Of a stretch of DNA of 64,000 bases, positions 9,306 to 47,847 are shown one piece after another. The position numbers were made by a program, and so were the translations under genes. Source of the stretch: Paraflavitalea pollutisoli. GTDB taxonomy: Bacteria; Bacteroidota; Bacteroidia; Chitinophagales; Chitinophagaceae. The DNA lies in contig NZ_JARKMX010000014.1 of assembly GCF_029360705.1 (NCBI RefSeq), forward strand, positions 620,001 to 684,000, written 5' to 3'. The notes below the pieces were generated by a model. The model was given only the letters and a program-made list of their open reading frames with translations, did no database searches and had not been told where the DNA came from. How positions within the stretch are numbered: position 1 is the stretch's first letter; each line of letters opens with the position of its first letter.

Positions 9306-11729
9306 ATGATCTACAACTACCTGAAGATAGCCTTTCGCAGCTTGCTGAAGTATCGGTTTATCTTCTTCACGAATCTTTTTGGCCTAACCGTAGGTTTTAC
9401 CTGCTGTCTGCTCATCTTCGTGTATATCCTGCACGAGACCAGTTTCGATAAGCAACATCCCCGGGCCGACCAGACCTACCGGGTTACCCGTCTTTTCCGC
9501 AATGCCGAGACCGGCGCTACCAACCTTAACCTGGGTGCGGTAGCTCCTCCCTTTGCCCCCTATCTTACCAATGACTTCAAACAGATAGAAGGTATTACCC
9601 GTGTACTGCCCACCGGCAACCTCACGTTGCGTTATGAAGACAAACTGTTTAGCGAAAACGATGTTTACTTCTCCGACGAACAGTTCTTCGATTTCTTCGC
9701 CGTAGACGTTACCAAAGGCGATCGGAAAACTGCCCTCAATGAACCGTATACGGTGATGCTTTCGGAAGAAGTGGCCAACAAGTACTTTGGTAACAGCGAC
9801 CCCATCAACAAAATGGTGAAGGTTAACAACGAAGCCAAAGCATTCAAGGTGACGGGCGTATATAAGGCTTTCCCGACCAATATGCACCTGCGCCCCAACC
9901 TGATGGTGTCCTTCAATACGCTCCGCGACTCTACCATTTACGGTGAAGAGAACCTGCGTACCAACTGGGGCAATAACGCTTTCTACACGTATATACGTTT
10001 GCCAGCCGGATCGGATCCCGCAAAACTCGAAGCCCAGTTCCCGGCCTTTATAGACCGGCACCTTACACAAGGCTCGGCCGTTAAAGCGTCCAAATGGACG
10101 CAATTGTCATTACAAAAGCTCACGGACATACATCTCCACTCCCACCTCGACTCGGAGATCCGGGAAAACGGTGATATCCGTCGTGTATATATCTTCTCTG
10201 CTATTGCGTTGTTTATCCTGCTCATTGCCTGCATCAACTATATGAACCTGGCCACTGCCCGTTCGGTACTGCGTGCCCGGGAGATTGGTATTCGTAAGGT
10301 AGTGGGTGCAGAACGCAAAGAACTTATTTTCCAGTTCCTCAGCGAATCCACGCTGATCACCTGGCTGGCTATGATCCTGGCCTTTGTCCTCAGCTGGCAG
10401 CTGATGCCTTTCCTGAATAAGGTATCGGGACAAACACTCAGCATTACTGCCCTGCTGCGCTGGGAAGTATTGGTCCCCATCCTCCTCGCACCATTTGTCG
10501 TAGGCCTGGTCGCCGGTATCTATCCCGCCCTGTTCATGTCTTCCTTCCGCCCTATCAAAGTGCTGAAAGGATTCATGAAGACTGGCGGCGCCAACATCTC
10601 TTTTCGCCAGGTACTCGTCACTACGCAGTTTGCGGTTTCGATCATGCTGATCATCGCCACGGCAGTCGTGTACCGCCAGTTGCAATACATGCAGGAGAAA
10701 TCACTGGGTTTCGACCGTGAACATATTGTGACGATGGGTTATGACGGCGACCTCAGTCCGAGGTATGATGCCTTCCGTGGCGCCATGCTGTCCAATACAC
10801 AGATCAAAAGCATTGGTCGTTCTTCACGCATCCCCACCGGCCGCCTGCTGGATGCCAATGGCGCCTCCATTGAAAGGGGCGACTCATTGGCCCCCGTCAC
10901 TGCCGACATCAAATACCTGGTAGCCGACCAGGACTTTATTGGCACTTATGGCGTTAAGACTGTTGCCGGACGCTCTTTTTCCCGCGATTATGGTTTGGAT
11001 ACTGCCGGCTTTATCGTCAATGAAGCGGCGGTGAAAGCGATGGGCCTGGCTTCCAATGAAGCAGCCGTGGGTAAGAATTTCAGCTACGGCAATCGTAAGG
11101 GCAAGATCATCGGCGTGATCAATGACTTCCATTTCGAGTCCCTGCACCAAAGTATCATACCGCTGGTATTGCTGATGCCGGAAAGCGATCGCTACAACCG
11201 GCTCTCGATCAAAGTATCTGGTAGCAATATGCCGGCGGCACTCGCGCACATTGAACAAACCTGGAAACAGTTTCTGCCGGAAGCCCCCTTCAGCTACACC
11301 TTCCTGGATGACCGCTTTGCCGACCTGTACCGGGCCGAGCAACAGCAGGGCACCCTGTTCACCATCTTTGCGAGCATCGCTATCGTGATCGCCTGCCTGG
11401 GCTTATTCGGGCTGTCGGCCTTTGCGATCAACCAGCGCATCAAAGAGATCGGTATACGGAAAGTGATAGGCGCTTCCGTACCAAGTATCGTGACCCTGCT
11501 GTCGAAAGACTTTCTGAAACTGGTAGCTATTGCCACGGTCATCTCCTTCCCCATCGCCTGGTACGCGATGAACAACTGGCTGGAGGATTTTGCGTACCGC
11601 AGCACGATACCCTGGTGGATCTTTTTAGGAGCCGGCATCATCGCGGTGATCATTGCCCTGGGCACCATTAGTTTCCAGGCGATCAAAGCGGCTACTGCCA
11701 ACCCTGTTAAAAGTTTAAGAAGCGAATAA
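9306..11729 (+). CDS. Double-FtsX ABC permease P1
   Basis: 807 residues, two MacB-like halves fused in one chain. First half: TM1 about 20-42, periplasmic MacB_PCD-like domain about 43-290, TM2-4 about 293-315, 347-370 and 388-412. Second half: TM5 about 435-457, a second periplasmic domain to about 680, then TM6-8 about 681-704, 737-756 and 767-789. After TM2 and TM6 lie the two cytoplasmic coupling segments REIGIRKV (325-332) and KEIGIRKV (711-718). A fused pair like this resembles a LolC-LolE dimer in one polypeptide. Second-domain motifs NDFHFESLH and YTFLDDRF recur in most paralogs, as does the C-terminus NPVKSLRSE. ATPase 1 lies 95 bases upstream. The substrate is unknown; export or extraction from the membrane is inferred. 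Confidence 0.93.
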   Translation: MIYNYLKIAFRSLLKYRFIFFTNLFGLTVGFTCCLLIFVYILHETSFDKQHPRADQTYRVTRLFRNAETGATNLNLGAVAPPFAPYLTNDFKQIEGITRVLPTGNLTLRYEDKLFSENDVYFSDEQFFDFFAVDVTKGDRKTALNEPYTVMLSEEVANKYFGNSDPINKMVKVNNEAKAFKVTGVYKAFPTNMHLRPNLMVSFNTLRDSTIYGEENLRTNWGNNAFYTYIRLPAGSDPAKLEAQFPAFIDRHLTQGSAVKASKWTQLSLQKLTDIHLHSHLDSEIRENGDIRRVYIFSAIALFILLIACINYMNLATARSVLRAREIGIRKVVGAERKELIFQFLSESTLITWLAMILAFVLSWQLMPFLNKVSGQTLSITALLRWEVLVPILLAPFVVGLVAGIYPALFMSSFRPIKVLKGFMKTGGANISFRQVLVTTQFAVSIMLIIATAVVYRQLQYMQEKSLGFDREHIVTMGYDGDLSPRYDAFRGAMLSNTQIKSIGRSSRIPTGRLLDANGASIERGDSLAPVTADIKYLVADQDFIGTYGVKTVAGRSFSRDYGLDTAGFIVNEAAVKAMGLASNEAAVGKNFSYGNRKGKIIGVINDFHFESLHQSIIPLVLLMPESDRYNRLSIKVSGSNMPAALAHIEQTWKQFLPEAPFSYTFLDDRFADLYRAEQQQGTLFTIFASIAIVIACLGLFGLSAFAINQRIKEIGIRKVIGASVPSIVTLLSKDFLKLVAIATVISFPIAWYAMNNWLEDFAYRSTIPWWIFLGAGIIAVIIALGTISFQAIKAATANPVKSLRSE

Positions 11730-11755
11730 TTTACCTCATTCATCAACCGAAGTAT

Positions 11756-12160
11756 ATGAAAAAGTATAGTCTCCTCCTGTTACTCGCCGCGCTTGCTTCA
11801 GGCGCCATGGCCCAGGAGAAAAAAGAATACACCAGTATCAGCAAAAGCATCAGCGATGATGGCAAAACGCTGGACATGAAAGTATCTTTCAAAGCAAAGG
11901 GCGAGAAAACCCAGCATTATGAAAACACATTCGATATCCGTAACCTGAGCAAGAGCGACAAAGAAGCACTCGTGAGCAGGATCATGGATTCGCTGGGTGT
12001 ACCCAACCAGACACCGCCTGCTGCTCCTAAAGCGCCGGAACCACCTAAGTCGCCGGAGGCCCCCAAGGCTCCGGAAGCGCCCAAGGCACCCAAACAAAGG
12101 CGGTATGCTGCCGCCCAACCTATTCCTGCTAACGCTATCAACCTGCAACAATATGCGTAA
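11756..12160 (+). CDS. Small periplasmic protein with Pro/Ala/Lys-rich tail
   Basis: 134 residues with a signal peptide ending at about AMA-QEKK (19-20). A folded part follows (about 25-82), then a low-complexity tail with repeated P-K-A-P-E units (about 87-112). The folded part aligns by eye with the lipoprotein encoded next to it: both have a KSI/NSI start, alternating beta-type residues, a D/E-R-x-x-L stretch and end near DSL. No known family was recognised. It sits 26 bases after P1, and its last codons overlap the start of the lipoprotein gene, so translation is probably coupled. Confidence 0.75.
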   Translation: MKKYSLLLLLAALASGAMAQEKKEYTSISKSISDDGKTLDMKVSFKAKGEKTQHYENTFDIRNLSKSDKEALVSRIMDSLGVPNQTPPAAPKAPEPPKSPEAPKAPEAPKAPKQRRYAAAQPIPANAINLQQYA

Positions 12161-12410
12161 CCACCGTCACCTTACGCTCGTAGCGATTGCCCTGCTCGTC
12201 CTAGCAACAGCCTGCGACCGCGACACCGTCGTCAAAAACTCCATTACGTATGACAAGGACATCCTGAAGGTGGCCGTATACGTTAAGGTCGATGGCCAGG
12301 TACGTAAAGACTATAAACGGGAGATCAATGTAGCCGGTCTCCCCAAAGAAGAAAGGGATGCCCTGGGTAAGCAATTGCTTGACTCGCTCAAGGCTTTGCC
12401 CGACAACTAA
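12153..12410 (+). CDS. Small lipoprotein, paralog of the preceding protein
   Basis: 85 residues from the ATG at 12153, which overlaps the stop of the previous gene by 8 bases (ATGCGTAA). A longer frame from 11997 only reads the previous gene out of phase and was rejected. The N-terminus is a lipoprotein signal with lipobox LATAC, so the protein would be lipid-anchored at Cys21. The mature part matches the folded part of the protein at 11756 in length and pattern (NSITYDKDILKV; LPKEERDALGKQLLDSL). One soluble and one anchored paralog, translated together inside an exporter operon, may act as a partner pair. The function is unknown. Confidence 0.72.
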   Translation: MRNHRHLTLVAIALLVLATACDRDTVVKNSITYDKDILKVAVYVKVDGQVRKDYKREINVAGLPKEERDALGKQLLDSLKALPDN

Positions 12411-12478
12411 GCTTCCATCCACCTATGCTGGCCATACCACCCTACCCATTGTTCATTACCCAACCAATCTAAATTAGT

Positions 12479-14893
12479 ATGTTTAGCAATTACATGAAGA
12501 TCGCCTGGCGCAACCTCTGGAAACACAAGGTATTTGCCACGATCGTAGTATTTGGTATGGCCATCGCCTTTGCCGCAGCTTTGTTGCTCTCGGCCACTGC
12601 GTACCACGAATTGTCGTACGACCAGTTTCACGAAAACAAAAACCATCTTTACCAATTCTATTTCCAGGAGCAGCATGCCAACAGACAGGAAGAGAGTTCC
12701 TCTATGCCGGTTCCCCTGGCCCCTGCCCTCAAGGCCGATTACCCGGAAATAAAGCATATTACCCGCTACGGAAGCAGTCCCTATAGTACTGCCCGCTACA
12801 ACAACAAGGAAGTGAATTTCAACATCCGCTCGGTAGACCCCGATTTTCTGCAGATGTTCACTTTCCCGGTAGTTCAGGGTAATACCAAGGCCCCCCTCGG
12901 CAACCTCAATGACGTGGTACTCACCGACCGCGTGGCCAGGATCATTTTCAAAGAAGAAGAGCCAATCGGCAAAACAATCGAACTGAAGCAAGACAACGGC
13001 TGGCAGTCATTCACCGTTGCTGCCATCGTCAAAGACTTCCCCGACAACAGCAGCTTTACTTTCGACATTCTCCAACGTTTCGAGCATTTTGGCGGCTACC
13101 GCGATCTGACCGATGTGTGGGATTCTGACAACCACGAAGTATTTATGCAGCTGCAGGACAACGTGCAGCCCGCTGCCTTCGAAAAACAAACTTATTCCTT
13201 CGTTCATAAACACTATGCAGAGAAACTCACCTCGCTGAAACGCGATGGCGCCCTTCCCGACAATACTGGCGAACTCGTTCGCCTGCGCACGATCCCGATG
13301 AGTGAGATCCACTTCAACGAGATCAGTAATTCGGGCGAAGGTGTCAATGCCTTCTATCCTTATCTGCTGCTGATCATCAGCGGCTTTATCCTGTTTATTG
13401 CCTGTGTGAATTTTGTGAACCTATCGCTGGCCCGTTCCTTCACCCGCTCGAAAGAGATCGGCATCCGCAAGGTGATGGGCGCTATGCGCTGGCAACTGAT
13501 CTCCCAGTTCTGGGGAGAAGCACTGATCGTGAGTCTGCTGGCCCTCGTAGCCGGCGTGGTGCTTGCCTGGGGTATCATGCCTTACTACAAACAAGTATTT
13601 TACCGCAGCATGTCGATGGAGATGCTCAGCTCGCCGATGATGTTGCTGTATATCGTTGCAGGTTTCATTCTCGTCACCCTGATCGCTGGCGGCTATCCAG
13701 CCTGGATCATCTCCGCCTTCAAAACCGTAGAGTCGGTGAAGGGCAAACTGCCTGTGGGCCGATCGCACAAAGTGCGCAACACCCTGATGGTGGTTCAATT
13801 TGTGTTGTCGTCCCTGCTCATCATCTGCACCATGATCGTATGGCAGCAGCTGAACTACCTGCGTACCAAACCACTGGGCTATAACAATCACCAGGTGATC
13901 AGCTTGCCCATTGGTCCGGCCATGGACCCAGAGAAGGCCCTGCACCTGATGCGTGACCGGCTGGCGAAAGAACCCCGTATCCTGAGCGTCACGGGTACAG
14001 ACATGAATATGGGACGTGGTCGGGATGGCTCTTCCTCTACCTCGATCATGGGATTCGATTATAAAGACAAGGGCATCAAAACGCACTGGCTGCGGGTCGA
14101 TTATGATTACCTGAAAACAATGGATATCCAGTTGCTGGAAGGGCGTGATTTCTCACGCAATTTTGGCACAGATACCGGTGGTGTGATCATCAATGAGACC
14201 ATGGCGCGACAATTGGGTGAAAAAGATCCTTTGACGGCCGTACTGGACATCGATGGTGGTAAGTTGAACGTGATCGGCGTCGTGAAAGACTTTCACTTCA
14301 AATCCCTGCACCGTGAATTGGCTCCACTGACCCTGACGATCCGTCCCAACTGGGGCATGTCGTATATCTTTATCCGTGTACAACCGGATAACCTGCCTGC
14401 TTCGATGGACGTGATCAAGGGTGCCTGGAAGGAAGTAAATCCCAAAGCCACCTTCAATGCCTCTTTCCTCGATGAGAATACAGATCGTACTTACAATGGA
14501 GAAACGAAATTATCCAAAATATTCATCAGCGGTGCCGTCTTGGCGATCCTGATCTCCTGTATGGGCTTGTTTGCCATTGCCCTGCTGGCGATCCTGCAAC
14601 GCACCAAGGAGATTGGTATCCGCAAGGTGCTGGGTGCCAGCGTACCGCATATCGTCGGCCTGGTATCCCGCGACTTTATGATCCTGGTGCTGGTCGCCAT
14701 TGTGATCGCGTCGCCGATCGCCTGGTATGCCATGCACAACTGGCTGCAATCATTCTATTACCGCATCGATATTGCCTGGTGGATCTTTGCATTGGCGGGT
14801 GTCCTGGCGCTTGTCATCGCCTTTATCACCCTGAGCCTGCAATCGGTAAAAGCTGCCCTCAGGAACCCGGTAAAAAGTTTGCGCAGCGAATAA
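12479..14893 (+). CDS. Double-FtsX ABC permease P2
   Basis: 804 residues with the same eight-helix, two-periplasmic-domain layout as P1. Coupling segments are KEIGIRKVMGA (first half) and KEIGIRKVLGAS (second half), both intact. TM1 departs from the paralogs: the usual IN-x-x-GL-x-x-G segment is replaced by ATIVVFGMAIAFAAALL. The first periplasmic domain ends with EIHFNE where several copies have DIHLHS. The second has KDFHFKSLH. It ends NPVKSLRSE. It starts 68 bases after the small lipoprotein gene, so those two small genes separate P1 from the rest of the array. Confidence 0.92.
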   Translation: MFSNYMKIAWRNLWKHKVFATIVVFGMAIAFAAALLLSATAYHELSYDQFHENKNHLYQFYFQEQHANRQEESSSMPVPLAPALKADYPEIKHITRYGSSPYSTARYNNKEVNFNIRSVDPDFLQMFTFPVVQGNTKAPLGNLNDVVLTDRVARIIFKEEEPIGKTIELKQDNGWQSFTVAAIVKDFPDNSSFTFDILQRFEHFGGYRDLTDVWDSDNHEVFMQLQDNVQPAAFEKQTYSFVHKHYAEKLTSLKRDGALPDNTGELVRLRTIPMSEIHFNEISNSGEGVNAFYPYLLLIISGFILFIACVNFVNLSLARSFTRSKEIGIRKVMGAMRWQLISQFWGEALIVSLLALVAGVVLAWGIMPYYKQVFYRSMSMEMLSSPMMLLYIVAGFILVTLIAGGYPAWIISAFKTVESVKGKLPVGRSHKVRNTLMVVQFVLSSLLIICTMIVWQQLNYLRTKPLGYNNHQVISLPIGPAMDPEKALHLMRDRLAKEPRILSVTGTDMNMGRGRDGSSSTSIMGFDYKDKGIKTHWLRVDYDYLKTMDIQLLEGRDFSRNFGTDTGGVIINETMARQLGEKDPLTAVLDIDGGKLNVIGVVKDFHFKSLHRELAPLTLTIRPNWGMSYIFIRVQPDNLPASMDVIKGAWKEVNPKATFNASFLDENTDRTYNGETKLSKIFISGAVLAILISCMGLFAIALLAILQRTKEIGIRKVLGASVPHIVGLVSRDFMILVLVAIVIASPIAWYAMHNWLQSFYYRIDIAWWIFALAGVLALVIAFITLSLQSVKAALRNPVKSLRSE

Positions 14894-14936
14894 CCCACGA
14901 ACTAAACAACCAACACCAACCATACAAACAGTATCG

Positions 14937-17312
14937 ATGTTCAGGAACTATCTAAAAACAGCTTTCAGGAACCTGTGGAAACACAAAGCCTTTTCCTTCA
15001 TCAATATCATGGGGCTTACCGTGGGCATGACGGCCTGCTTCCTCATCTTCCTGTATGTACGCTTTGAACTATCTTACGACACTTTCAATACCAAAGCAGA
15101 CCGGGTGTACCGAATCGTGGGGGATCTGAAAACGCCTTCCGAAACACTGAAGACCGGCGGTCCTTCGTGGGCAGCACCTCCCAATATCAAAGATGAGTTT
15201 CCCGAAGTGGAAGCCTTTGTGCGTTTCAACGGCGATTATATGCTGCTGCGTCGCGGCGATATAAAGATCCAGGAGCCCAGCATCGGATTTGCCGACTCCG
15301 CCCTCTTCAAGATCTTCGACTTCAAACTGCTGCAGGGTAATCCCGAAAAAGCATTGACCGAACCACAGAGCATCGTATTGTCGGAAAAAGCCGCCAAGAA
15401 GTTTTTTGGCAATGAGAACCCCATGGGGCAAACGCTGCTGATGTGGGATAGCGGCGAGCCAGCCAAGATTACGGGTATTATGAAAGAAATTCCCGAGAAT
15501 TCGCAGCTCAAGGTAGATGTCTTTGTATCGATGAGTACGCTCACCGGCAAATTTGCCAAGGACCTCGACAACCAATGGGGTAACTATGGCACTTCTGCCT
15601 GGTTGTTGCTAAAACCCGGCACCAATTACAAGGCGCTGGAATCGAAGTTCCCGGCCTTCATCAAAAAGCGGGCGGGTAAAGAAGAGGCGGAGATGCAGAT
15701 GTATGCCACCCTCAAGCTGGAGCCTTTACTCGATGTATACCTGCATTCGGAATACGCAGCCAACGGCAGCATCACCAACGTATACATCTTTTCGATCGTT
15801 GCCGTTTTCATCCTGCTGATAGCCTGTATCAACTTCATCAACCTCACCACTGCCCGCTCTACCGAGCGTGCCAAAGAGGTGGGCATTCGTAAAGTGGTGG
15901 GCGCCGGTAAGGTGCAGCTGGTACGCCAGTTCATTGGCGAATCGGTTATCCTTTGCGTGGTCGCTTTCCTGTTTACCATCGGGCTGGCAGCTTTGTTGCT
16001 CCCCTTGTTTAACCAGCTCGCCGGCAAGGAAGTGAGCCCTGGTATTTTTAGTAACTGGGGGTATATCGGCACCCTGTTTGCGGCAGCAATTGGTATTGGT
16101 ATGCTGGCTGGGATTTATCCCGCACTGGTACTCACCTCCTTCCAACCGATCGTGGTATTGAAAGGCCGCTTCTCGACCGGTATGCGCGGCATCTTGCTCC
16201 GGAAAGGGCTGGTAGTAACGCAGTTCAGTATTTCCATTGCGCTGATCATCGCCACCATCATCGTTTACCGACAGATGGACTTTATGCGTAACCAGGACCT
16301 GGGTTTCAAAAAGGACCAGATGGTGATCATCAATACCAATAATGATCCGGCCCGGGAAGCCTTCAAACAATCGTTGACTACTGTGCCTGGCGTACAGGCG
16401 GTATCGTTGGCCGGTAGTGTACCCGGCGGTGGCAATCCAGGTGCCTATTCGGAGGTGGAAAACTTCAAAGGCGACCTGCAGATCGCCAACCTCGACCTGT
16501 ATTTTGTCGATTTCGATTATATCAAGATCTATGATATGAAGATGGCAGCGGGCCGCCCTTTCTCCCGCGATTTCCTTACGGATACTACGCAGGCCATGAT
16601 CATCAATGAAACTGCTGCGCGGCTTTTCGGCTATCCCAGTGCCGAGCAAGCCATTGGTCGTCGTTATAAACAGTGGGGCAGCGAAGGCAGGATCGTCGGT
16701 GTGGTGAAGGATTTTCATTTCCGTTCCCTCCAAAGCCAGATCAAGCCGCTGACCATGCGGATCAATCCTAAAGGCTCGGGACTGGTATCTGCGAAAATTG
16801 CCCCTACCAATGTCAAAGCCACGTTGACGGCTATCGAGAACAACTGGAAACGCATCATGCCCAACCGGCCTTTCAGCTATCGGTTCCTCGACGAACAATT
16901 TAATGAGCAATACCGTGCGGAAGAACGTTTTGGTAACCTCTTCTTCAATTTCGCCATCCTCGCCATCTTCATTTCCTGCCTGGGCTTGCTGGGCCTCGCC
17001 GCCTATAGCACCGCGCAACGGACCAAAGAGATCGGCATCCGTAAAGTGATGGGCGCTTCGGTAGCCGGCATCATCAACCTGGTATCGAAAGACTTCCTGA
17101 AACTGGTCGGTATTGCCTTCGTGATTGCCGCGCCTACTGCCTGGTACTTTATGCACAAATGGGTAGAAGGTTTCGCCTACCGTACCCCAATCGCCTGGTG
17201 GGTATTCCTGCTGGCCGGCGCGCTGGCCCTGGTCATCGCCGTGGCCACCATCAGTTTCCAAGCCATCAAAGCAGCTATCATGAACCCTGTAAAAAGCTTA
17301 AGAAGCGAATAA
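14937..17312 (+). CDS. Double-FtsX ABC permease P3
   Basis: 791 residues, the shortest of the sixteen, with the P1 layout. Start ATG follows P2 by 43 bases. TM1 keeps the family pattern INIMGLTVG and is followed by FELSYDTF. The first-half coupling segment is KEVGIRKVVGA and the second-half is KEIGIRKVMGAS. The first periplasmic domain ends DVYLHSEYAANGSI and the second has KDFHFRSLQ and YRFLDEQF. It ends NPVKSLRSE. A long minus-strand frame opposite this gene (15726-17261) is a codon-bias shadow. Confidence 0.92.
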   Translation: MFRNYLKTAFRNLWKHKAFSFINIMGLTVGMTACFLIFLYVRFELSYDTFNTKADRVYRIVGDLKTPSETLKTGGPSWAAPPNIKDEFPEVEAFVRFNGDYMLLRRGDIKIQEPSIGFADSALFKIFDFKLLQGNPEKALTEPQSIVLSEKAAKKFFGNENPMGQTLLMWDSGEPAKITGIMKEIPENSQLKVDVFVSMSTLTGKFAKDLDNQWGNYGTSAWLLLKPGTNYKALESKFPAFIKKRAGKEEAEMQMYATLKLEPLLDVYLHSEYAANGSITNVYIFSIVAVFILLIACINFINLTTARSTERAKEVGIRKVVGAGKVQLVRQFIGESVILCVVAFLFTIGLAALLLPLFNQLAGKEVSPGIFSNWGYIGTLFAAAIGIGMLAGIYPALVLTSFQPIVVLKGRFSTGMRGILLRKGLVVTQFSISIALIIATIIVYRQMDFMRNQDLGFKKDQMVIINTNNDPAREAFKQSLTTVPGVQAVSLAGSVPGGGNPGAYSEVENFKGDLQIANLDLYFVDFDYIKIYDMKMAAGRPFSRDFLTDTTQAMIINETAARLFGYPSAEQAIGRRYKQWGSEGRIVGVVKDFHFRSLQSQIKPLTMRINPKGSGLVSAKIAPTNVKATLTAIENNWKRIMPNRPFSYRFLDEQFNEQYRAEERFGNLFFNFAILAIFISCLGLLGLAAYSTAQRTKEIGIRKVMGASVAGIINLVSKDFLKLVGIAFVIAAPTAWYFMHKWVEGFAYRTPIAWWVFLLAGALALVIAVATISFQAIKAAIMNPVKSLRSE

Positions 17313-17377
17313 TTCATCATTATAAAACTGCACACCACCCACCACCCATCATTGACTATCATTAAAACCAACAAGCC

Positions 17378-19789: not shown

Positions 19790-19844
19790 CAGATAAGGCT
19801 ATGAGGAAAATGTAAGTCATTCTCAACAACTAAAACCTGTCTGT

Positions 19845-22289: not shown

Positions 22290-22294
22290 AGTGT

Positions 22295-22316
22295 CAGCCT
22301 GCTGTCAAGCAGGCTG
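22295..22316 (+). other. Hairpin between P5 and P6
   Basis: CAGCCTGCT (22295-22303) pairs with AGCAGGCTG (22308-22316) around GTCA, a perfect 9-base stem six bases after the P5 stop. The following bases (TGCTTGTAC) are not T-rich, so it is more likely an RNA-stabilising or processing element than an efficient terminator. Confidence 0.5.
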
Positions 22317-22352
22317 TGCTTGTACTATATCAACCAATAAAATCTATCGACC

Positions 22353-34450: not shown

Positions 34451-34480
34451 GCAATCACTTAACACCCTCAATAGTATACC

Positions 34481-36892: not shown

Positions 36893-36945
36893 GCAACTTT
36901 CCGATTATTCAGTCGACCTTATTACTAACAATAAAATGATTATAT

Positions 36946-37983
36946 ATGAAATCATTCTTTTCCCTTCTCCTGGCAGCTGGCCTGTGTCAGGTTGCCCAGG
37001 CGCAAACCGAAACGCCTTTCCAGACCAAATCCCTGAAAGATGCCGGTATTGAAAAGGTAACAGCCGAAACATCGGGTGGCAATATTTCCGTGACGGGCGG
37101 AGCCGCCGACCTGCGGATCGATGTATACATCCGGCCAAGCAATGGCCGCATAAGTACACTCAGTAAGGAAGATATCCAGAAAAGACTGGAGGAAGACTAC
37201 GACTTTAAAGTAACCACAGAGAATCACCAGCTCACGGCGATCGCGCGGCCTAAAGATCGTTCCGGGAGTTATGATTGGAAACGCGCCCTATCGATATCTT
37301 TTGTGATCTATGTACCCCGTAATGTAGCCACCAGCCTCACCACCAGTGGTGGAAATGTGGCGCTCGCCCACCTCGCGGGTGTACAGGATTTCCGCACGAG
37401 TGGCGGCAACCTCTCACTTGATGACCTGACGGGCAATATCAAGGGGTCTACGTCCGGCGGTAATATAGATATCAAAGATTCCAAAGACGATATCACGTTG
37501 ATCACCAGTGGTGGTAATGTAAAAGCCGCCAACTGCGATGGTAAGATCAGGTTGACGACCTCAGGCGGCAACGTGACACTGGATCAATTGAAAGGCACGA
37601 TCGATGCTACCACCAGTGGTGGCACCGTGCGCGCCACCACGGTTGGAGGAGATCTTTCTGCAGTGACTTCCGGTGGCAATGTACACCTGGAGAACCTGTC
37701 GTGCAGCGTTCGGGCCTCTACTAGCGGCGGTAATATGACCGTGAGCCTGAAAGAGCTGGGCAGCTTCGTGAAGCTTGCTAATTCAGGCGGCAATATCAGC
37801 CTGGACCTGCCCGGTGGAAAAGGACTCGACCTGCATATCACCGGCGGTAAAGTAAAAGCGGGTACCCTGAGTAATTTCAGTGGTACGGTAGAAGATGATT
37901 CCATCGATGGTAAGATCAACGGCGGAGGCATTCCCGTTACCGTGAAAGGCGGCAGCGGACGGGTGACCCTGTCGATCAAATAG
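36946..37983 (+). CDS. Secreted DUF4097-type beta-repeat protein
   Basis: 345 residues with a signal peptide ending at about AQA-QTE (18-20). The mature protein is dominated by ten spaced SGG turns (eight TSGGN, one TSGGT, one NSGGN) between short beta strands, the pattern of DUF4097 beta-helix or beta-solenoid domains. These proteins are predicted periplasmic or surface proteins of unclear function. No adhesin motif, lipobox or sorting signal is visible. It is the only large non-permease gene inside the array, between P11 and P12. A strong hairpin follows it. It may be a periplasmic scaffold or envelope-stress partner of the exporters, but that is inference from position only. Confidence 0.83.
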   Translation: MKSFFSLLLAAGLCQVAQAQTETPFQTKSLKDAGIEKVTAETSGGNISVTGGAADLRIDVYIRPSNGRISTLSKEDIQKRLEEDYDFKVTTENHQLTAIARPKDRSGSYDWKRALSISFVIYVPRNVATSLTTSGGNVALAHLAGVQDFRTSGGNLSLDDLTGNIKGSTSGGNIDIKDSKDDITLITSGGNVKAANCDGKIRLTTSGGNVTLDQLKGTIDATTSGGTVRATTVGGDLSAVTSGGNVHLENLSCSVRASTSGGNMTVSLKELGSFVKLANSGGNISLDLPGGKGLDLHITGGKVKAGTLSNFSGTVEDDSIDGKINGGGIPVTVKGGSGRVTLSIK

Positions 37984-37998
37984 TATAAGATATCGATT

Positions 37999-38029
37999 GC
38001 CCTCCATCGGTCAGGAACCGATGGAGGGC
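37999..38029 (+). other. Strong hairpin after the DUF4097 gene
   Basis: GCCCTCCATCGGT (37999-38011) pairs perfectly with ACCGATGGAGGGC (38017-38029) around a 5-base loop, 16 bases after the stop. The bases behind it (TTCATCCATTC) are only partly T-rich. It could be a weak terminator or a stop to 3' decay, separating P11-DUF4097 from P12. Confidence 0.55.
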
Positions 38030-38080
38030 TTCATCCATTCATAAGCACCTGTATTCACTGCACACCAAAACCAAACAAAC

Positions 38081-40492: not shown

Positions 40493-40508
40493 ACAAAAAT
40501 AGATCACC

Positions 40509-42953
40509 ATGATCGCTAACCACCTTCGGATCGCTGTACGCAACCTGCGCAAACGCAGGGGGCACACCCTGCTCAACCTGACCGGCCTGACCATCGGTAT
40601 GACCTGCTGCCTGCTGATCTTCCACTATGTATCGTTCGAGAAAAGTTATGATACCTTCCACAAAGAAGCCGATGACATCGTACGCCTGCAGATAGACCGG
40701 TACAAAGAGGGGGTGCTGCAATGGAAATCGGCCACGGTATATCCCGCCATCGGGCCAACCCTGAAAAAAGATTTCCCGGAGGTTGCCGACATATGCCGCC
40801 TCATCGATGCCGACATGCTGATCACCAATGAAGAGCGGCAACAGAAATTTAACGAGACCAAAGGATATTTTGCCGACCCGTCAACCTTGAACATGTTCGA
40901 CATCCGGTTTACGCAAGGCAACCCGGCAACCGCCCTGGTGGGTCCCGACAAACTGGTCATCTCCGAGAGCATGGCCAATAAATACTTTGGAACCACCCAG
41001 GCCCTCGGCAAACGACTGTCGGTACGCTACGGCGGTTTGACCTTGCCCTACGAGGTAAGCGGTGTATTCAAAGACTATCCGGCCAATTCCCACCTCGACA
41101 TTCAATACCTGGCCCCCTACGATGCATTCAAGAAGGTGATCCTGACCGTGTGGCGCGACAGCAGCAATCCTGCCGATAACGCCTGGGGCTGGTACGACTT
41201 CTACACCTATGTGAAGCTGAAACCAGGTACGGACGTGGCTAAATTTTCCGCCAAACTACCCGGCTTCAGCGATAAGTACATGAACAGTTCCGAATATGCG
41301 AAGAAGAACAATCACCGGACATTTGTACAATGGATGCCTTTGCAGAATGTTCACCTGTATTCACAACTGAACCAGGAAGCCGAAGTGAACGGCAACGGAC
41401 AGGCGGTAGGTTTTTTGTTCCTCGTCGCCATCTTCATTATCGGTATTGCCTGGATCAACTACATTAACCTCGCCACGGCCCGTTCGGTAGAACGCGCCAA
41501 AGAGGTAGGAGTTCGAAAGGTACTGGGGGCCCTGCGCACCGACCTCATCCGGCAATTCCTCACGGAAAGCTTCCTGCTCAACCTGCTGGCGCTGGCGCTT
41601 TCGCTGGGACTGTTCTTTGCGCTGCTTATACCCTTCGGCCGGTTTGTAGGACAGCCGGAGAACAGCATGAACCTGTCGCCACACTACTGGCAACTCTTTG
41701 CCGGGATCTTTGTGGGCGGAACCCTGCTCTCGGGCCTTTATCCTGCCTTTGTATTGTCTGGCTTCCAACCGATCAAAGTGCTGAAAGGCTTATTCAAGAA
41801 TTCTACCAGCGGGCTGCTCCTGCGCAAAGGGTTGATCGTACTTCAGTTCACTACTTCAGTAGTATTGATTGCAGGCACCATTGTCGTATACCGGCAGGTT
41901 AGTTATATGCGCAACCAAAAGCTGGGTGCCAATATCGAACAGACATTGGTATTGCAGGGCGCTACCTCGCCCAATGACTCTACCTACAAGCAACTCATGC
42001 AACCCTTTAAATCGGCGATACTACAACAAAGCGGCATCAAACAGATGGCGGTATCGTCCAACGTAATGGGGCAGGAAATATACTGGACCAACTCACACAA
42101 GCAGGTAACGCAGCAAAGCCAGGCCGCTACCACGTTGTACAACCTGGGTATCGACGCCGACTTCGTACCTATGTTTGACATGAAGCTGGCAGCTGGCAGA
42201 AATTTCGATCCCTCGTACGGAACAGAGTACAGCAATGTACTGCTGAATGAAGAAGGTGTTAAGGTCATGGGCTTCGCCAACGCTGCCGAAGCTATTGGCA
42301 AACGCATCAACAGCGGTCGCGATACTGCCACGATCGTAGGCGTACTGGCTAATTATCACCAACAGGGATTACAAAAAGCAATCTCGCCGTTGTTGATACG
42401 TTATCAACCCGATAACCGCAATTACTATTCGATCAGGATGAGTGCGGGTAATGTCAAAGCTACAGTGGAAGCGGTTAAGCAGGAATGGGATAAATATTTT
42501 CCGGGCGACCCTTTCAATTATATTTTCCTGGACGACTATTTCAACAAGCAATACCAGGCTGACCTGCTCTTCGGTAAAGTGTTTGGCATCTTTGCCTCAT
42601 TGGCGATCCTCATCGCCTGCTTCGGCCTGCTGGGCCTTTCGGCTTACAATGTGATACAACGTACGAAAGAAATAGGCATCCGGAAAGTATTGGGCGCCTC
42701 TTCTCAAAGTATTCTCGTATTGTTGTCGAAGGATTTCATGAAGCTGATCGTGTTATCGCTGGTGCTGGCCATCCCGATAGGCTGGTACGTAATGCATATA
42801 TGGCTGCGGGATTTTGCCTATCGTATTACCCTCGCCTGGTGGTTCTTTGCCGTGGCCGGTGTATTGGCTCTAGGGATCGCCTTATTGACCATTGTATTAC
42901 AGGCAGCGAAAGCCATCGTCCTAAATCCCGTTAAAAGCCTGAGAAGCGAATAA
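40509..42953 (+). CDS. Double-FtsX ABC permease P13
   Basis: 814 residues, ATG start only 16 bases after P12, the closest spacing in the array. Coupling segments are KEVGVRKVLGA and KEIGIRKVLGAS. The N-terminus is IANHLRIAVRNLRKRRG, unlike the common NYxKxAWRNL. The first domain ends NVHLYSQLNQEAEVNGNG and the second has ANYHQQGLQ, close to the P9 form. It ends NPVKSLRSE. Confidence 0.92.
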   Translation: MIANHLRIAVRNLRKRRGHTLLNLTGLTIGMTCCLLIFHYVSFEKSYDTFHKEADDIVRLQIDRYKEGVLQWKSATVYPAIGPTLKKDFPEVADICRLIDADMLITNEERQQKFNETKGYFADPSTLNMFDIRFTQGNPATALVGPDKLVISESMANKYFGTTQALGKRLSVRYGGLTLPYEVSGVFKDYPANSHLDIQYLAPYDAFKKVILTVWRDSSNPADNAWGWYDFYTYVKLKPGTDVAKFSAKLPGFSDKYMNSSEYAKKNNHRTFVQWMPLQNVHLYSQLNQEAEVNGNGQAVGFLFLVAIFIIGIAWINYINLATARSVERAKEVGVRKVLGALRTDLIRQFLTESFLLNLLALALSLGLFFALLIPFGRFVGQPENSMNLSPHYWQLFAGIFVGGTLLSGLYPAFVLSGFQPIKVLKGLFKNSTSGLLLRKGLIVLQFTTSVVLIAGTIVVYRQVSYMRNQKLGANIEQTLVLQGATSPNDSTYKQLMQPFKSAILQQSGIKQMAVSSNVMGQEIYWTNSHKQVTQQSQAATTLYNLGIDADFVPMFDMKLAAGRNFDPSYGTEYSNVLLNEEGVKVMGFANAAEAIGKRINSGRDTATIVGVLANYHQQGLQKAISPLLIRYQPDNRNYYSIRMSAGNVKATVEAVKQEWDKYFPGDPFNYIFLDDYFNKQYQADLLFGKVFGIFASLAILIACFGLLGLSAYNVIQRTKEIGIRKVLGASSQSILVLLSKDFMKLIVLSLVLAIPIGWYVMHIWLRDFAYRITLAWWFFAVAGVLALGIALLTIVLQAAKAIVLNPVKSLRSE

Positions 42954-42979
42954 TATTGACCCTCTAAAATTAATATACC

Positions 42980-45385
42980 TTGATCAGAAACTTTTTCAAA
43001 ACAGCCTGGCGCAAGATGTGGAAACACAAAAGTGAAAGCGCCATCAACCTGGCAGGATTATCGATTGGCATGACAGCCGCGGTACTGATCATGTTGTGGG
43101 TACAGAACGAGTTGAGCTACGACAATTATCATCCCAGTGTGGAGCAGGTCTACCGGATCACCAACCATGTGCCCATAACCCCGGAGGAAACCTGGGTATG
43201 GGAGAACTCTCCTTTTCCGCTGACAGAGATCGCCAAAAAAGAAATACCGGATATTGAAGCACTGGCCTTCATGAGTCAGGGCTATGGTACCACCTTCAAC
43301 ATCCGGGGTGAGCTTTTCAAGGAAAAGAAGGCGGCGAACGTATCAGCAGAATGGTTTGACGTCTTCAAATACGAATTCGTATCCGGATCACCGACCAGCT
43401 TTTTCCAGGCTCCCTTCAATATGGCGATGACCGAATCGGCCGCGCGCCGCTATTTCGGTAAGGCCGAGCCAATCGGACAACTGGTGAAGATCGATACCAT
43501 CAACTACCAGGTAACGGCCATCTTAAAAGACAACCCCACCAATTCGAGCTTTCAGTACGACGTACTGATGCCGATGGCGGCCAAACACACCAACCCCAAA
43601 CAGTTGGCCAATGACCGGCAATGGGGTAATTTCAACCACATCACTTTCATCCGGATCAACCCGAAATCGAATCCCCAACAGGTAAGTGCCAAGCTCACCC
43701 AGTTGCTGGACAATAACCGGAAAGAAAACAAGGTCAGGGCCGCTCTTCTTCCCCTGCGTGAACTGCATTTCGACAACACGGTTCAGAATACGGTGTTCCA
43801 GACCGGTAGCCGGCAGGCAGTCTATGTATTTGCCTTCCTCGCCGTATTGATCCTGGTGGTTGCCTGTATCAACTATGTCAACCTTACGACGGCCCGTGCC
43901 AGCATGCGCGCCAAAGAAGTAAGCATCCGTAAGATCGTGGGCGCAGCCCGGGGCTCGCTCTTTGGTCAGTTCCTTGCAGAATCGCTGTTCACCGGGTTTA
44001 TTGCCTTACTGATCACTATTGCCCTGGTGCAACTGGCATTACCTTTCTTTAACGAGGTTACCGGCCAGCCATTCAGGCTGCCGCTGACAGCTGCCAGTTT
44101 CTGGCTGCTCATCGCTGGAACCATCGTAACCGTCACGTTGCTGACGGGCATCTACCCGGCCCTGCTGTTGTCGTCTTTCAAACCCCTTAGTCTTTTTAAA
44201 GGCGGCAGCATATTGAAGCTGAAAGACGTTACCCTGCGAAAGATCCTGGTGACTACACAATTTGCCGTTTCGGTCATGCTCATTGCGGCGACCCTGATCA
44301 TCTATAAACAATTGGCCTTTATCCGCAGTCAAAATACCGGGTACGACCGGTCGCAGGTGCTTACTTTTACCCTGCCCTGGAAGGTGCTGGAACCCTATCG
44401 TAAGGACAATAATCAGGTCGTTCTATTTCACAACAGGTTACAGCAACAATTAATGGGTATCAGCGGCATTGAAAAAGTAACGACTGCCAACGAATCGGTG
44501 CTCAGCATAGAAAGCAGTTCTGCGGGTAATGCAGACTGGGCTGGCCGTCCCAAGGAATATGAACCATCACTGGTACGATTATCCGGCGATGAGACATTCC
44601 CCTCTTTCTTTGGGCTTGAGCTGGCGGCAGGCCGGTGGTTCCGTCCACAGGATGAGAACGACGCCATGAATAGTTTTATCCTGAACGAAACGGCCATTAA
44701 ACAACTGAAGATCCGGCAGCCAGCGGTTGGCCAGTATTTCAAGTTCAACGGCGACTCGGGTCAGATCGTTGGCGTTGTCAAAGACTTTCATTTCCGTAGC
44801 TTACACACCGCGATATCTCCCCTGGTGTATCACATCGGTGATGATTGGCGATTGAACTACTTCCTGAAGGTATCGCCCAAAAGTATCGGCTCGGTAATAC
44901 CTGCTGTCGAAAAGATCTGGAAATCAACCGTACCTACGGTTCCGTTCGAATATGAATTCCTCAACGAATCATTCGAAAAACAATACCGGGCGGAGAACCG
45001 GATGTCGACCCTGATGATCATCTTTGCCAGTATCGCGATCTTCATTTCGTGTCTGGGATTGCTGGGTCTCGCAGCCTTTAGTGCCGAACGCAGGACCAAG
45101 GAGATCGGCATCCGTAAAGTACTCGGTGCCAGTATATCCAGCATCATTGCCTTGCTGAGCCGCGAGTTCCTCCTGCTGGTGATCGTTGGTGGATTGATTG
45201 CTGTACCGGTGGCCTGGTGGGCCATGAACAAATGGCTGGAGAATTTCGCTTACCGGGTGTCGCTTAGTCCGTGGACCTTTGCCGCTGCAGGTATACTGGT
45301 ACTGGCCATCACCCTGGTCATCGTTGGTCTGCATAGCCTGCGCGCGGCCTCCAGCAACCCCACCAGTAGTTTAAGAAACGAATAA
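42980..45385 (+). CDS. Double-FtsX ABC permease P14
   Basis: 801 residues from a TTG start; IRNFFKTAWRKMWKHK aligns with the neighbours and fixes it. Coupling segments are KEVSIRKIVGA, where Ser replaces the conserved Gly, and KEIGIRKVLGAS. The first domain ends ELHFDNTVQNTVFQ and the second has KDFHFRSLH and YEFLNESF. The tail NPTSSLRNE lacks the usual Val-Lys pair. A terminator-like hairpin follows directly. Confidence 0.92.
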   Translation: MIRNFFKTAWRKMWKHKSESAINLAGLSIGMTAAVLIMLWVQNELSYDNYHPSVEQVYRITNHVPITPEETWVWENSPFPLTEIAKKEIPDIEALAFMSQGYGTTFNIRGELFKEKKAANVSAEWFDVFKYEFVSGSPTSFFQAPFNMAMTESAARRYFGKAEPIGQLVKIDTINYQVTAILKDNPTNSSFQYDVLMPMAAKHTNPKQLANDRQWGNFNHITFIRINPKSNPQQVSAKLTQLLDNNRKENKVRAALLPLRELHFDNTVQNTVFQTGSRQAVYVFAFLAVLILVVACINYVNLTTARASMRAKEVSIRKIVGAARGSLFGQFLAESLFTGFIALLITIALVQLALPFFNEVTGQPFRLPLTAASFWLLIAGTIVTVTLLTGIYPALLLSSFKPLSLFKGGSILKLKDVTLRKILVTTQFAVSVMLIAATLIIYKQLAFIRSQNTGYDRSQVLTFTLPWKVLEPYRKDNNQVVLFHNRLQQQLMGISGIEKVTTANESVLSIESSSAGNADWAGRPKEYEPSLVRLSGDETFPSFFGLELAAGRWFRPQDENDAMNSFILNETAIKQLKIRQPAVGQYFKFNGDSGQIVGVVKDFHFRSLHTAISPLVYHIGDDWRLNYFLKVSPKSIGSVIPAVEKIWKSTVPTVPFEYEFLNESFEKQYRAENRMSTLMIIFASIAIFISCLGLLGLAAFSAERRTKEIGIRKVLGASISSIIALLSREFLLLVIVGGLIAVPVAWWAMNKWLENFAYRVSLSPWTFAAAGILVLAITLVIVGLHSLRAASSNPTSSLRNE

Positions 45386-45388
45386 TAG

Positions 45389-45425
45389 AGCAGCCGGGCA
45401 GGTAATTCCTGTCCGGCTCTTTCCT
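45389..45425 (+). terminator. Terminator-like hairpin between P14 and P15
   Basis: GCCGGGCAGG (45393-45402) pairs with CCTGTCCGGC (45408-45417) with one G-U pair around TAATT. A T/C-rich stretch TCTTTCCTTCTTCC follows. This is the best intrinsic terminator candidate inside the array and would lower or stop read-through into P15. Confidence 0.6.
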
Positions 45426-45450
45426 TCTTCCAACTTTTAAATCAATTCGT

Positions 45451-47847
45451 ATGTGGCGCAATTTTGTCCTGCTCGCCTGGAGAAACCTCATCAAGCACAA
45501 GACCTTTTCGTTAATCAACATACTGGGCCTATCTGCCGGGATTGCTTTCGTATTTCTGATTGGCACCTATGTATGGGGAGAGCTACGGGTGAACAAAAGT
45601 ATTGCCGACAACGAACGTGTATACCTGGTGCGCAGTAAATGGAAGAAACCGGAGATGGGCATGGATCTTACCACGTTGGGAGCGTTGGGCAGATCGCTTA
45701 AAAACGACTATCCCGGCCTGGTAGAGTCTTATTATCGGCATGATGGGATCAGCTCCATTGTATCCAGGGGTAACAAATATTTTCGGGAAGGATTGCAACC
45801 TGGCGACAGCACCTTTCTATCCATCACGGGTTTCCCCTTGGTGCAAGGCGATGCGCGCACAGCCTTGCATGGTCCTAATGCCCTGGTACTGACCGAAAGC
45901 AAAGCTCAAAAGTATTTTGGCCGCACCGATGTGCTCGGCGAAACGCTGACCCTGCAATCTTTTGCCGGCGGCAAACAAGACTTTGTCATCACCGGTGTAC
46001 TGAGAGATCTGCCGTATAATACGATCAATAATTTTACCAATACCAAGAACGAGATCTTCCTGTCGGAACAAAGTCTCCGTTTCTTTGGCCGTTACGAGGG
46101 CTTTCAGGCCTGGCAAAATGCGTACATCATCAACTATGTTAAGCTCCGCAAAGGCGTACAGCCGGCCGATCTGCAAAAGCCTATCCGGCAGCTGCTGACC
46201 TCAAATACCACGCCTGATATACAAGCCAACCTGGAAGTGTACCTGACACCGGTCAGTGATTATTACCTGGAAATGAACAACGGTCTCGCGCGCCGTATGG
46301 TATATACCCTCAGCATGGTGGCCCTGTTCATCCTCGTGATGGCGGTGATCAATTTCATCAACATCACCATCGGCAACTCCACCACCAGACTGAAAGAGAT
46401 CGGCTTGCGCAAAGTCATGGGTGGCAGTCGCCAACAACTGATAGGTCAGTTCCTGACCGAATCGGTGGTATTGGCATTGCTTTCCGTTGTGCTGGCCTTG
46501 TCCATCTACCAGCTGGCCTACCCTTTCTGCGGTAAGATGCTGGGTCGGGCCCTGCCATCGCTGACGGCTATGCCGATGGCAGCTATGGCTATCCCCTTCG
46601 CTACGGCGTTGTTGATCGGCCTGCTGGCCGGTTCCTATCCTGCCCTGATCCTTTCCCAGCAGCCTTCCGTTGACTCCCTGAAAGGCAAACTAAAGACAGT
46701 CAAAGAGAAAGTAATATTCCGGCGCGCACTCATCGCCCTGCAGTTTACGACGGCTATCGTTGTCTTTGTTGGCGCCATGGTAGTGGGCCGCCAGGTCGAC
46801 TACGCCTTCAACAGCAGCCTGGGCTACGATAAAGCACAGATCATCACTGCCACGGTGCCACGTGACTGGACCACAACAGGCGTGCATCATATGGAAACTG
46901 TCCGTAACGAGCTATCGCGTCTGCCCGAGGTGGTCAGCGCCAGCGTATCTTACGAGATCCCCGATGGCATGAGTGGCAATGGCGGCAACCTGTATCCTGC
47001 CTCAGGCGATTCCATACAAGCCGTTATTTGCACGGGCCTCGCAACCGATGACCAGTACGCTGCTACTTATGGCCTCACCATGGCTGCCGGCCAATATTTG
47101 GATCGGGACACCACGAAACTGGTGATCAACGAAACAGCAGCCCGATTGCTTGGGTGGAAGGATGTGCAGACTGCCGTAGGACAACCCGTAAAGCTGGTGG
47201 GTGTTCGGCAAACGCTGACCATTGGCGGCGTTGTCAAAGACTTCCATTTCGAGAGCAAGCATGTAGCTATTACCCCAATGGTGATCAGCCATATTCGCAA
47301 TACAGCCACCTACCGGTACCTGTCATTCAAAGTAAAGGCAGGCAATATGGCAAAGACTTTGTCCGCCATAGAACAAAAATGGGCGACTGTACTGCCGGGT
47401 GCTCCGTTCGATTACAAGTTTATGGACGATACCCTCGGTTTCCTTTACCGGTCGGAAATACAACTGAAGCAAGCCGCCGAAACCGCTACCCTGCTGGCCA
47501 TCGTTATCGTATTATTGGGCGTATTGGGGGTGGTGACCCTCAGTATTACCCGTCGCATGAAGGAGGTAGGTATCCGTAAAGTATTGGGCGCTTCCGGCGC
47601 CCAGATCATCAGCCTCTTCCTACAGGAATTTGCGTGGACGATCGTGCTGGCAAATCTCATTGCCTGGCCACTGGCCTGGTGGGCGCTAAATAATTGGTTG
47701 GGCAACTTTGTATACCGCATTCAACTTAATCTCGCACCTTTCGCCCTGGTGGCCGTTGTAATTGCCTTACTGATCGCAGCGATCGTATCGCTGCAGACCA
47801 TCGTGCGGGCCTTGAAGAATCCGATCAGGAATCTGCGGAGCGAATAA
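45451..47847 (+). CDS. Double-FtsX ABC permease P15, last of the array
   Basis: 798 residues, ATG start 65 bases after P14, behind a terminator-like hairpin. The region after TM1 reads GELRVNKSI, so the E-L-S-Y-D pattern shared by most copies is lost. TM2 is followed by TIGNSTTR instead of STARS. Coupling segments are KEIGLRKVMGG and KEVGIRKVLGAS. The second domain has KDFHFESKH. The tail is NPIRNLRSE. Its 3' end faces the channel gene on the other strand, with only three bases between the two stops and no clear terminator. Confidence 0.91.
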   Translation: MWRNFVLLAWRNLIKHKTFSLINILGLSAGIAFVFLIGTYVWGELRVNKSIADNERVYLVRSKWKKPEMGMDLTTLGALGRSLKNDYPGLVESYYRHDGISSIVSRGNKYFREGLQPGDSTFLSITGFPLVQGDARTALHGPNALVLTESKAQKYFGRTDVLGETLTLQSFAGGKQDFVITGVLRDLPYNTINNFTNTKNEIFLSEQSLRFFGRYEGFQAWQNAYIINYVKLRKGVQPADLQKPIRQLLTSNTTPDIQANLEVYLTPVSDYYLEMNNGLARRMVYTLSMVALFILVMAVINFINITIGNSTTRLKEIGLRKVMGGSRQQLIGQFLTESVVLALLSVVLALSIYQLAYPFCGKMLGRALPSLTAMPMAAMAIPFATALLIGLLAGSYPALILSQQPSVDSLKGKLKTVKEKVIFRRALIALQFTTAIVVFVGAMVVGRQVDYAFNSSLGYDKAQIITATVPRDWTTTGVHHMETVRNELSRLPEVVSASVSYEIPDGMSGNGGNLYPASGDSIQAVICTGLATDDQYAATYGLTMAAGQYLDRDTTKLVINETAARLLGWKDVQTAVGQPVKLVGVRQTLTIGGVVKDFHFESKHVAITPMVISHIRNTATYRYLSFKVKAGNMAKTLSAIEQKWATVLPGAPFDYKFMDDTLGFLYRSEIQLKQAAETATLLAIVIVLLGVLGVVTLSITRRMKEVGIRKVLGASGAQIISLFLQEFAWTIVLANLIAWPLAWWALNNWLGNFVYRIQLNLAPFALVAVVIALLIAAIVSLQTIVRALKNPIRNLRSE

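Follow-up and report, generated by a model that had tools for sequence, protein, structure and literature searches.

We analysed a window of 64,000 nucleotides from Paraflavitalea pollutisoli (G000:C6:620001-684000 in our genome set; the genome comprises 8.76 Mb in 16 contigs), which carries a long row of double-FtsX permease genes together with genes for a periplasmic adaptor, ATPases and an outer membrane channel. The original prediction, made from the sequence of the window, described fifteen same-strand intact paralogs of 791-814 residues, and their coordinates, lengths and open frames are all confirmed. Fifteen open reading frames (ORFs) without internal stop lie on the plus strand at 9306-47847: permeases 1 (9306..11729), 2 (12479..14893), 3 (14937..17312; structure modelled), 4 (17378..19789), 5 (19845..22289), 6 (22353..24740), 7 (24769..27162), 8 (27201..29603), 9 (29628..32039), 10 (32072..34450), 11 (34481..36892), 12 (38081..40492), 13 (40509..42953), 14 (42980..45385) and 15 (45451..47847). 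Permease 1 was assigned by Pfam and alignment, and permeases 2 to 15 by alignment and motifs, with the model in addition for permease 3.

Wherever two permeases directly adjoin, the spacer is 16-65 nucleotides (nt). The short spacers that had been predicted are found between such direct neighbours; the row as a whole also holds non-permease genes. Between permeases 1 and 2 lie a 134-residue secreted protein with a Pro/Ala/Lys-rich C-terminus and no Pfam match (11756..12160, plus strand) and an overlapping ORF with a small lipoprotein-like protein (11997..12410, plus strand), the true start of which is probably near 12150; a similar ORF is found in 4/4 other genomes of the genus. A 345-residue LiaG-like secreted repeat protein (36946..37983, plus strand; NCBIfam LiaG E 2e-12, below the cut-off) separates permeases 11 and 12. 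LiaG-like repeat proteins recur within the arrays of G001-G004, G020 and G031, and weakly in G022.

As predicted, an adaptor and an ATPase precede the array on the plus strand. The adaptor (6962..8218) is HlyD/MacA/DarC-like by profile matches and shares 95% identity with that of Paraflavitalea sp. CAU 1676 and 93% with that of a Niastella metagenome-assembled genome (MAG). ATPase 1 (8533..9210) has a canonical nucleotide-binding domain (NBD) by motif reading. The gap between them holds a 72-residue microprotein (8269..8487, plus strand) with a hydrophobic C-terminal tail, a signal peptide by eye and hydropathy, and no Pfam match. On the minus strand lie an NtrC-type response regulator (5270..6676; receiver, sigma-54 activator and Fis helix-turn-helix domains by Pfam, and a conserved position) and a histidine kinase (3833..5179; Pfam HATPase_c, with HisKA below the cut-off). 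By eye, the kinase has two N-terminal transmembrane (TM) segments with nearly no extracytoplasmic loop between them. Downstream of the array, again on the plus strand, are permease 16 (53482..55872; Pfam, alignment and synteny), ATPase 2 (55914..56576; by motif reading an NBD with LSGGQQQLVG after the signature and the D-loop LNS) and a TolC-family outer membrane channel (56605..57939; profile match and synteny).

Permease architecture and divergence

The prediction of two MacB-like halves per permease holds. Pfam assigns two MacB_PCD and two FtsX domains each to permeases 1 (9306-11729) and 16 (53482-55872), the two that were submitted to the domain search, and the remaining permeases align over their full length. 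Hydropathy gives eight TM segments in 15 of the 16 permeases and nine in permease 14. Both cytoplasmic coupling motifs are readable in 16/16 aligned permeases, and the coupling helix of each half lies between its second and third TM helices, as in type VII ATP-binding cassette (ABC) systems. A strict two-motif regular expression failed in 33/173 array ORFs and in 5/18 ORFs outside the array; in permeases 7 and 10, the ones inspected, it fails through K replacing the first R. An AlphaFold2 model of permease 3, built with 80 aligned sequences, has a predicted local distance difference test (pLDDT) score of 89 and a predicted template modelling (pTM) score of 0.83. The top Foldseek match of this model is Escherichia coli YbbP (E 3e-18, TM-score 0.45), followed by MacB (E 3e-14), a Porphyromonas gingivalis permease domain, LolE (E 4e-10) and BceB. 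Pfam, model and Foldseek agree on an FtsX fold with a MacB-like periplasmic domain on stalk helices, which is again a type VII feature.

Pairwise identity among the 15 array permeases averages 33.7% in the alignment and ranges from 26 to 44%, the most distant pair being permeases 10 and 15 (26%). With identities of 26-44% these are old paralogs. Conservation is unevenly distributed over the chain: identity among the 15 paralogs is 52 and 57% in the coupling segments and 25 and 27% in the two periplasmic domains, as one would expect of a constant motor and a varying cargo.

Recent amplification or an assembly artefact was ruled out, as no pair in the window exceeds 44% identity and for each of the 16 permeases one or more of the other genus genomes have an ortholog of 67-83% identity. 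Pseudogenes were ruled out as well, because all frames are open and the proportion of non-synonymous differences (pN) is well below that of synonymous ones (pS). For all 16 permeases compared with their orthologs pN is 0.10-0.23 and pS 0.65-0.75; pS is near saturation, so that the ratios of non-synonymous to synonymous substitution rates (dN/dS) are rough, dS was not computable in three pairs with G004, and for permeases 11 and 12 no G003 ortholog exceeds 60%. Judged from these comparisons, all 16 permeases are under purifying selection.

The locus in related genomes

An adaptor match at E <= 1e-30 was obtained in 19 of 59 genomes (our own included), all from one family. The comparison of copy number and synteny proposed in the original prediction reveals a conserved locus in which the number of permeases, N, spans 1 to 24. 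A histidine kinase and an NtrC-type regulator come first in the order that recurs among the 18 fetched relatives, and in 14/18 this pair is divergent from the adaptor; the adaptor is followed by ATPase 1, the N permeases, ATPase 2 and finally TolC. Adaptor and ATPase 2 are on one contig in 13 genomes, our own included. The permeases between them number 24 in G004 (where a permease-free stretch of at least 10 kb precedes the last ones), 19 in G002, 16 in the window, 15 in G003, and 14, 12, 7, 6, 6, 5, 4, 3 and 2 in the other nine. G022 deviates in that TolC comes first and one permease is ahead of ATPase 1; in G001, G011 and G032 ATPase 2 and TolC sit on another contig, and in G017, G027 and G034 the contig ends early. 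Two Sediminibacterium MAGs have a single-permease form, adaptor-ATPase 1-permease-TolC.

Because relatives keep permeases, ATPase 2 and TolC in one order, permease 16, ATPase 2 and TolC of the window are, as judged from synteny, the displaced 3' end of the same locus, separated from the rest in this genus. The sixteenth permease had been predicted to lie in a second operon; it is present, and this operon belongs to the same locus as the array. Genomes of the genus share the permease order apart from single gains and losses and a swap of permeases 4 and 5 in G004. Some array members have clear orthologs in other genera (50-69% for permease 3), and tandem duplicates also occur, with neighbours 86% identical in G004 and 73% in G022.

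Both parts of the locus are preceded by sigma-54-like sites of the form TGGCAY-N4-TTGC on the plus strand: CTGGCACGGCGTTGC at 6837..6851, 124 nt before the adaptor, and CTGGCATGTGATTGC at 53315..53329, 166 nt before permease 16. In 5/5 genus genomes there is such a site 124-130 nt before the adaptor and a comparable one 137-224 nt upstream of the permease that opens the 3' segment. More widely, TGG[CT]A-N5-TTGC occurs in 15/92 adaptor upstream regions compared with 0.13 in shuffles, and other spacings occur at most twice. The genome as a whole shows no excess of sigma-54-like sites (36 matches versus 30 for the reversed pattern); what speaks for sigma-54 control is where the sites lie and that they are conserved. 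Near the one before permease 16 there is another sigma-54-like site on the opposite strand (53421-53435, minus). According to a 2025 regulon study, sigma-54 control of FtsX-like permeases is predicted in Bacteroidia and other classes (PMC12316311).

The microprotein between adaptor and ATPase 1 also has counterparts. The gap measures at least 140 nt in 60 of 103 loci with adjacent adaptor and ATPase 1, and 40 of these 60 gaps contain a sense, signal-peptide-like ORF of at least 40 residues (one of the 40, L088, seems spurious); the opposite strand gives 12 and shuffled sequences 1.1. Gap peptides of 51-80 residues, alike in their hydrophobic C-terminal tail, are present in up to 40 of the 60 loci with room. 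A tail motif, P-hydrophobic-x(1-2)-hydrophobic, is present in 22 of 32 distinct peptides, with 3.1 expected and a maximum of 10 in 1000 shuffles; the tails played no part in the selection of the peptides, and the motif was defined after they had been viewed. Pfam gave no match in the four gap peptides tested. The 72-residue peptide may be a cargo, a regulator of the pump or a signal.

A proposed shared motor for many permeases

The original prediction had one ATPase serving the array. There are two, ATPase 2 being the 3' partner within the locus of relatives, and they differ consistently. We read 134 ATPases of the ATPase 1/2 type from fetched loci; these counts come from related loci and are not independent events. 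The ATPase 1 type (107/134) has R after SGGQQQ and the D-loop Asp in 106/106 readable sequences. The ATPase 2 type (27/134, all in the ATPase 2 position) has L or I after SGGQQQ, and the D-loop Asp is absent in 27/27, with N in 24, H in 2 and Q in 1 in its place. All 134 keep Walker A; the H-loop is kept in 131/131 readable sequences and the catalytic glutamate wherever the D-loop is readable. Such consistent motif differences are those of an asymmetric NBD pair, and they lead us to infer that the two ATPases join in an asymmetric dimer. In a review, the D-loop Asp/Asn difference is described as altering the dimerisation of the TAP1 NBD, and mutation of TAP1 at the D-loop Asp as yielding an ATPase-deficient transporter (PMC7756269). 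No report of two-ATPase asymmetry in type VII systems was found in our searches of the open-licence literature. An ATPase 2 ortholog is present in 15/15 locus-bearing family relatives tested (G017, G027 and G034 excluded).

Double permeases of this kind number 34 in the P. pollutisoli genome: the locus holds 16, and 18 full-length ones lie outside it. A dedicated ATPase for each permease elsewhere in the genome was what the original prediction named as speaking against a shared motor. In flanks of 3 to 10 kb per side, however, the ATPase 1/2 profile finds a MacB/LolD-type ATPase of more than 120 bits for 0/18 outside permeases. Five other such ATPases, read elsewhere in the genome, lie by half-size permeases (two), by an 868-residue permease of a distant kind (one) and by other genes (two). 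Permeases thus outnumber ATPases of matching type, as is characteristic of a shared (multitask) ATPase. For each of the 18 outside permeases the best match is an array member from a different genome; in 15 cases the identity to it is 48-76%, compared with 34-46% to the best member of the array in their own genome. The consensus of their coupling motifs is nearly the same as that of the array. By these measures the outside permeases are not a separate kind, and their nearness to the arrays of other genomes suggests that permeases move in and out of arrays.

Permeases and ATPase 1 also occur together across genomes. From the class (Bacteroidia) we drew 119 genomes and scored in each the best 7 permease and the best 24 ATPase candidates (E <= 1e-60 for double permeases, E <= 1e-78 for ATPase 1). 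Double permeases are present in 19/119, all 19 have an ATPase 1 ortholog, and 99/119 have neither. ATPase 1 is found in 20/119, namely the same 19 and G119, where it stands alone; in G111 both matches are impaired (a partial permease frame, and a stop in the ATPase match). Of the 17 family genomes without the locus, 12 were tested and none has double permeases; their best ATPase matches reach at most 224 bits. All 15 tested family genomes with the locus have double permeases (2 to at least 35 matches), of which by subtraction 0 (G008, G031) to at least 17 (G010, G033) lie outside the array. The proposed shared motor is, in our view, well supported by this comparative evidence.

Models of a proposed exporter and their rivals

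In having an adaptor and a TolC encoded with the transporter, a MacB-type periplasmic domain and the FtsX fold, the locus resembles the type VII ABC system MacAB-TolC. It differs from MacAB-TolC, in which the NBD is fused to a four-TM permease, by its separate ATPases, the second of them altered, and by its many eight-TM permeases with two MacB halves per chain. E. coli YbbAP-TesA, the best fold match, shares the single-chain double permease with two periplasmic domains and a separate ATPase. It has one permease, and YbbP has ten TM segments with a linking pair according to one study (PMC12646458), unlike the eight (15/16, hydropathy) of the window permeases. The ADOP family (TIGR03434) matches the permease over its full length of 803 positions and likewise occurs in many copies per genome, with 28 and 33 copies reported by annotation in two Dyadobacter (PMC11573002), whereas here nearly half of the copies are in one locus with ATPases. 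The TIGR03434 cut-off of 622.3 bits is not reached by any permease of the own genome (best 346.7) or in any of the 119 class genomes. DarBCD, the darobactin exporter, provides the best NCBIfam matches of the adaptor (DarC) and the ATPase (DarD), and DarB is second for permease 1; the scores are below the equivalog cut-offs (DarB 199 versus 700 for permease 1, DarC 160 versus 450, DarD 299 versus 375 bits). Sharing of an ATPase has a precedent in MsmX, which serves the permeases of several type I sugar importers (PMC7658222). MsmX resembles our system in having one ATPase for several permeases and differs in belonging to importers rather than a MacB-type export system; it is a closer precedent than the energy-coupling factor (ECF) transporters to which the locus had been compared. 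The fold and the kind of pump are known. For the arrangement, our searches of the open-licence literature gave no description of such a permease array, consistent with the original prediction, which knew of no functional account.

We consider it fairly probable that the locus encodes a sigma-54-controlled, MacAB-TolC-like tripartite exporter with exchangeable permease heads on a shared motor. From the comparisons above we infer physical sharing of the motor, the ATPase 1/2 heterodimer, export, the nature of the cargo and the stress signal, and would picture the mechanism as follows. Each double permease would be a complete single-chain transmembrane unit with two MacB halves, 4+4 TM helices and two coupling helices. 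A common motor would be built from ATPase 1, with larger systems adding the altered partner ATPase 2, and would dock on the conserved coupling helices of any permease, whether in the array or scattered in the genome. When ATP drives the motor to close, the permease would respond by moving its two periplasmic domains; these differ between copies and would select the cargo. The kinase/NtrC pair would turn on both parts of the locus under envelope stress. A more specific version is tentative: a type VII ABC export hub with an asymmetric ATPase 1/2 motor, one adaptor and channel and about thirty interchangeable single-chain permeases, roughly half in a single locus and the remainder scattered, the small secreted peptide encoded between adaptor and motor being dedicated to the system as its original cargo or a periplasmic regulator.

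Several observations weigh against the exporter with a shared motor. The co-occurrence of permeases and ATPase 1 is partly built in, because the locus carries both gene kinds, and in the class draw it rests on the 7 permease and 24 ATPase candidates scored per genome. One intact double permease in G020 (C130) stands beside its own ATPase, and G089, G096, G151 and G155 have two to four ATPase-1-like genes; for these two reasons motor sharing is, as far as the genomes compared indicate, the usual but not the only arrangement. The predicted modular exporter is partly supported, by 34 permeases against two ATPases and by the co-occurrence in 19/19 class genomes, and qualified by the second ATPase, the G020 exception and the extra copies. 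The strict sigma-54-like pattern is missing in 77/92 adaptor upstream regions, and the sites are one base shorter in spacing than the sigma-54 consensus. ATPase 2 orthologs are missing in 12 of 17 further genomes and present in 5 (E <= 1e-88, a line chosen after seeing a gap between 1e-88 and 1e-74). Permease 16 has a mean identity of 29% to the array, whose members average 34% among themselves; its greater distance is clearest in the second FtsX half (39 versus 51%) and would fit a separate partner.

Five further ATPase-permease neighbours have a stop inside the permease match (G003 C20, G020 C39, G107 C10, G112 C11, G132 C2). They are probably pairs of half permeases, because the stop in the match resembles that of the half-size pair on C1 of the own genome. 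The latter locus, L133 (G000:C1:71000-90999), contains at 5045-13837 an adaptor-like gene, an unassigned 530-residue ORF, an ATPase, two half-size permeases, an NtrC-like regulator and a kinase. The broken matches by ATPases in the five genomes may be kin of this locus.

The absence of a match at E <= 1e-88 in 12/17 further genomes led us to reject ATPase 2 as an essential subunit of the minimal system. Both Sediminibacterium MAGs are among the 12; nine of the 12 show at least 1-4 double permeases and G155 at least 7, and G174 and G175 were left uncounted. As ATPase 2 is not universal, the smallest set seems to need ATPase 1 only. A private pair of ATPase 2 and permease 16 is unlikely, because in relatives ATPase 2 comes after the whole array and is retained where permease 16 has no close ortholog.

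The permeases could also be mechanical devices, which use the shared ATPases to move periplasmic partners (an enzyme or a lipoprotein) or to pull membrane lipids, with adaptor and TolC serving one or two of them. YbbAP-TesA and FtsEX are the models for such a function. This explanation, which we regard as unlikely, draws on the closest solved fold being YbbP, not a tripartite pump, on the small secreted proteins interspersed in the locus, and on the neighbourhoods of the outside permeases, which gave no match to the locus's adaptor or TolC, the two queries used. It is opposed by the adaptor and TolC that flank the permeases in most fetched relatives, including the two single-permease Sediminibacterium MAGs.

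Still less probable is a sensing array, in which the permeases are receptors read by the loop-less kinase and many antimicrobial compounds lead to one response, as in BceAB-BceS. Like that system, the locus links a type VII permease to a kinase with little extracytoplasmic sensor: the two TM segments seen by eye have hardly any loop, the kinase is divergently linked in 14/18 fetched relatives and in most named loci, and LiaG-like proteins recur. Bce-type coupling is reportedly known in Gram-positives. Unlike it, the window has a Gram-negative export path, encoded in full, many permeases, and a regulator of the NtrC type, which we take to be different from the Bce type; we saw no sign of permease-kinase contact. 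That most permeases do not use these ATPases, working without ATP or with other ATPases in a row due to tandem duplication, is very improbable: duplication clearly occurs (the 86 and 73% neighbours in G004 and G022) and the genome has other LolD-like ATPases, but both coupling motifs are kept in 16/16, no double permeases turned up in genomes lacking ATPase 1 (family genomes tested and class draw), and the five other ATPases read lie by the half-size permeases, the distant 868-residue permease and other genes.

ABC transporters are usually taken as fixed sets of motor and permease. If exchangeable permeases do share a motor here, specificity would be carried by swappable permeases, which would change how transporter genes are counted and annotated and could account for the orphan double permeases known from the ADOP family. 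In bacteria of this group, export specificities would be added or swapped by gain or loss of one permease gene. The locus would provide a natural set of matched parts for asking what lets a motor accept many permeases, and the conserved two-ATPase asymmetry would become testable.

A long gene for an MscS/MscK-type mechanosensitive channel (47851-50397, minus strand) lies between the array and the displaced 3' end, in G003 too. GC-rich hairpins without a long T run are located at 45392-45418 (by scan) and in the spacers after permease 5 and the LiaG-like gene (by eye); these three intergenic hairpins are possible attenuators or processing sites. Near the end of the window, at 61360-63987 on the minus strand, is a gene whose product looks secreted; it has five putative metal-binding repeats of MopE type and weakly matches a type IX secretion system (T9SS) tail.

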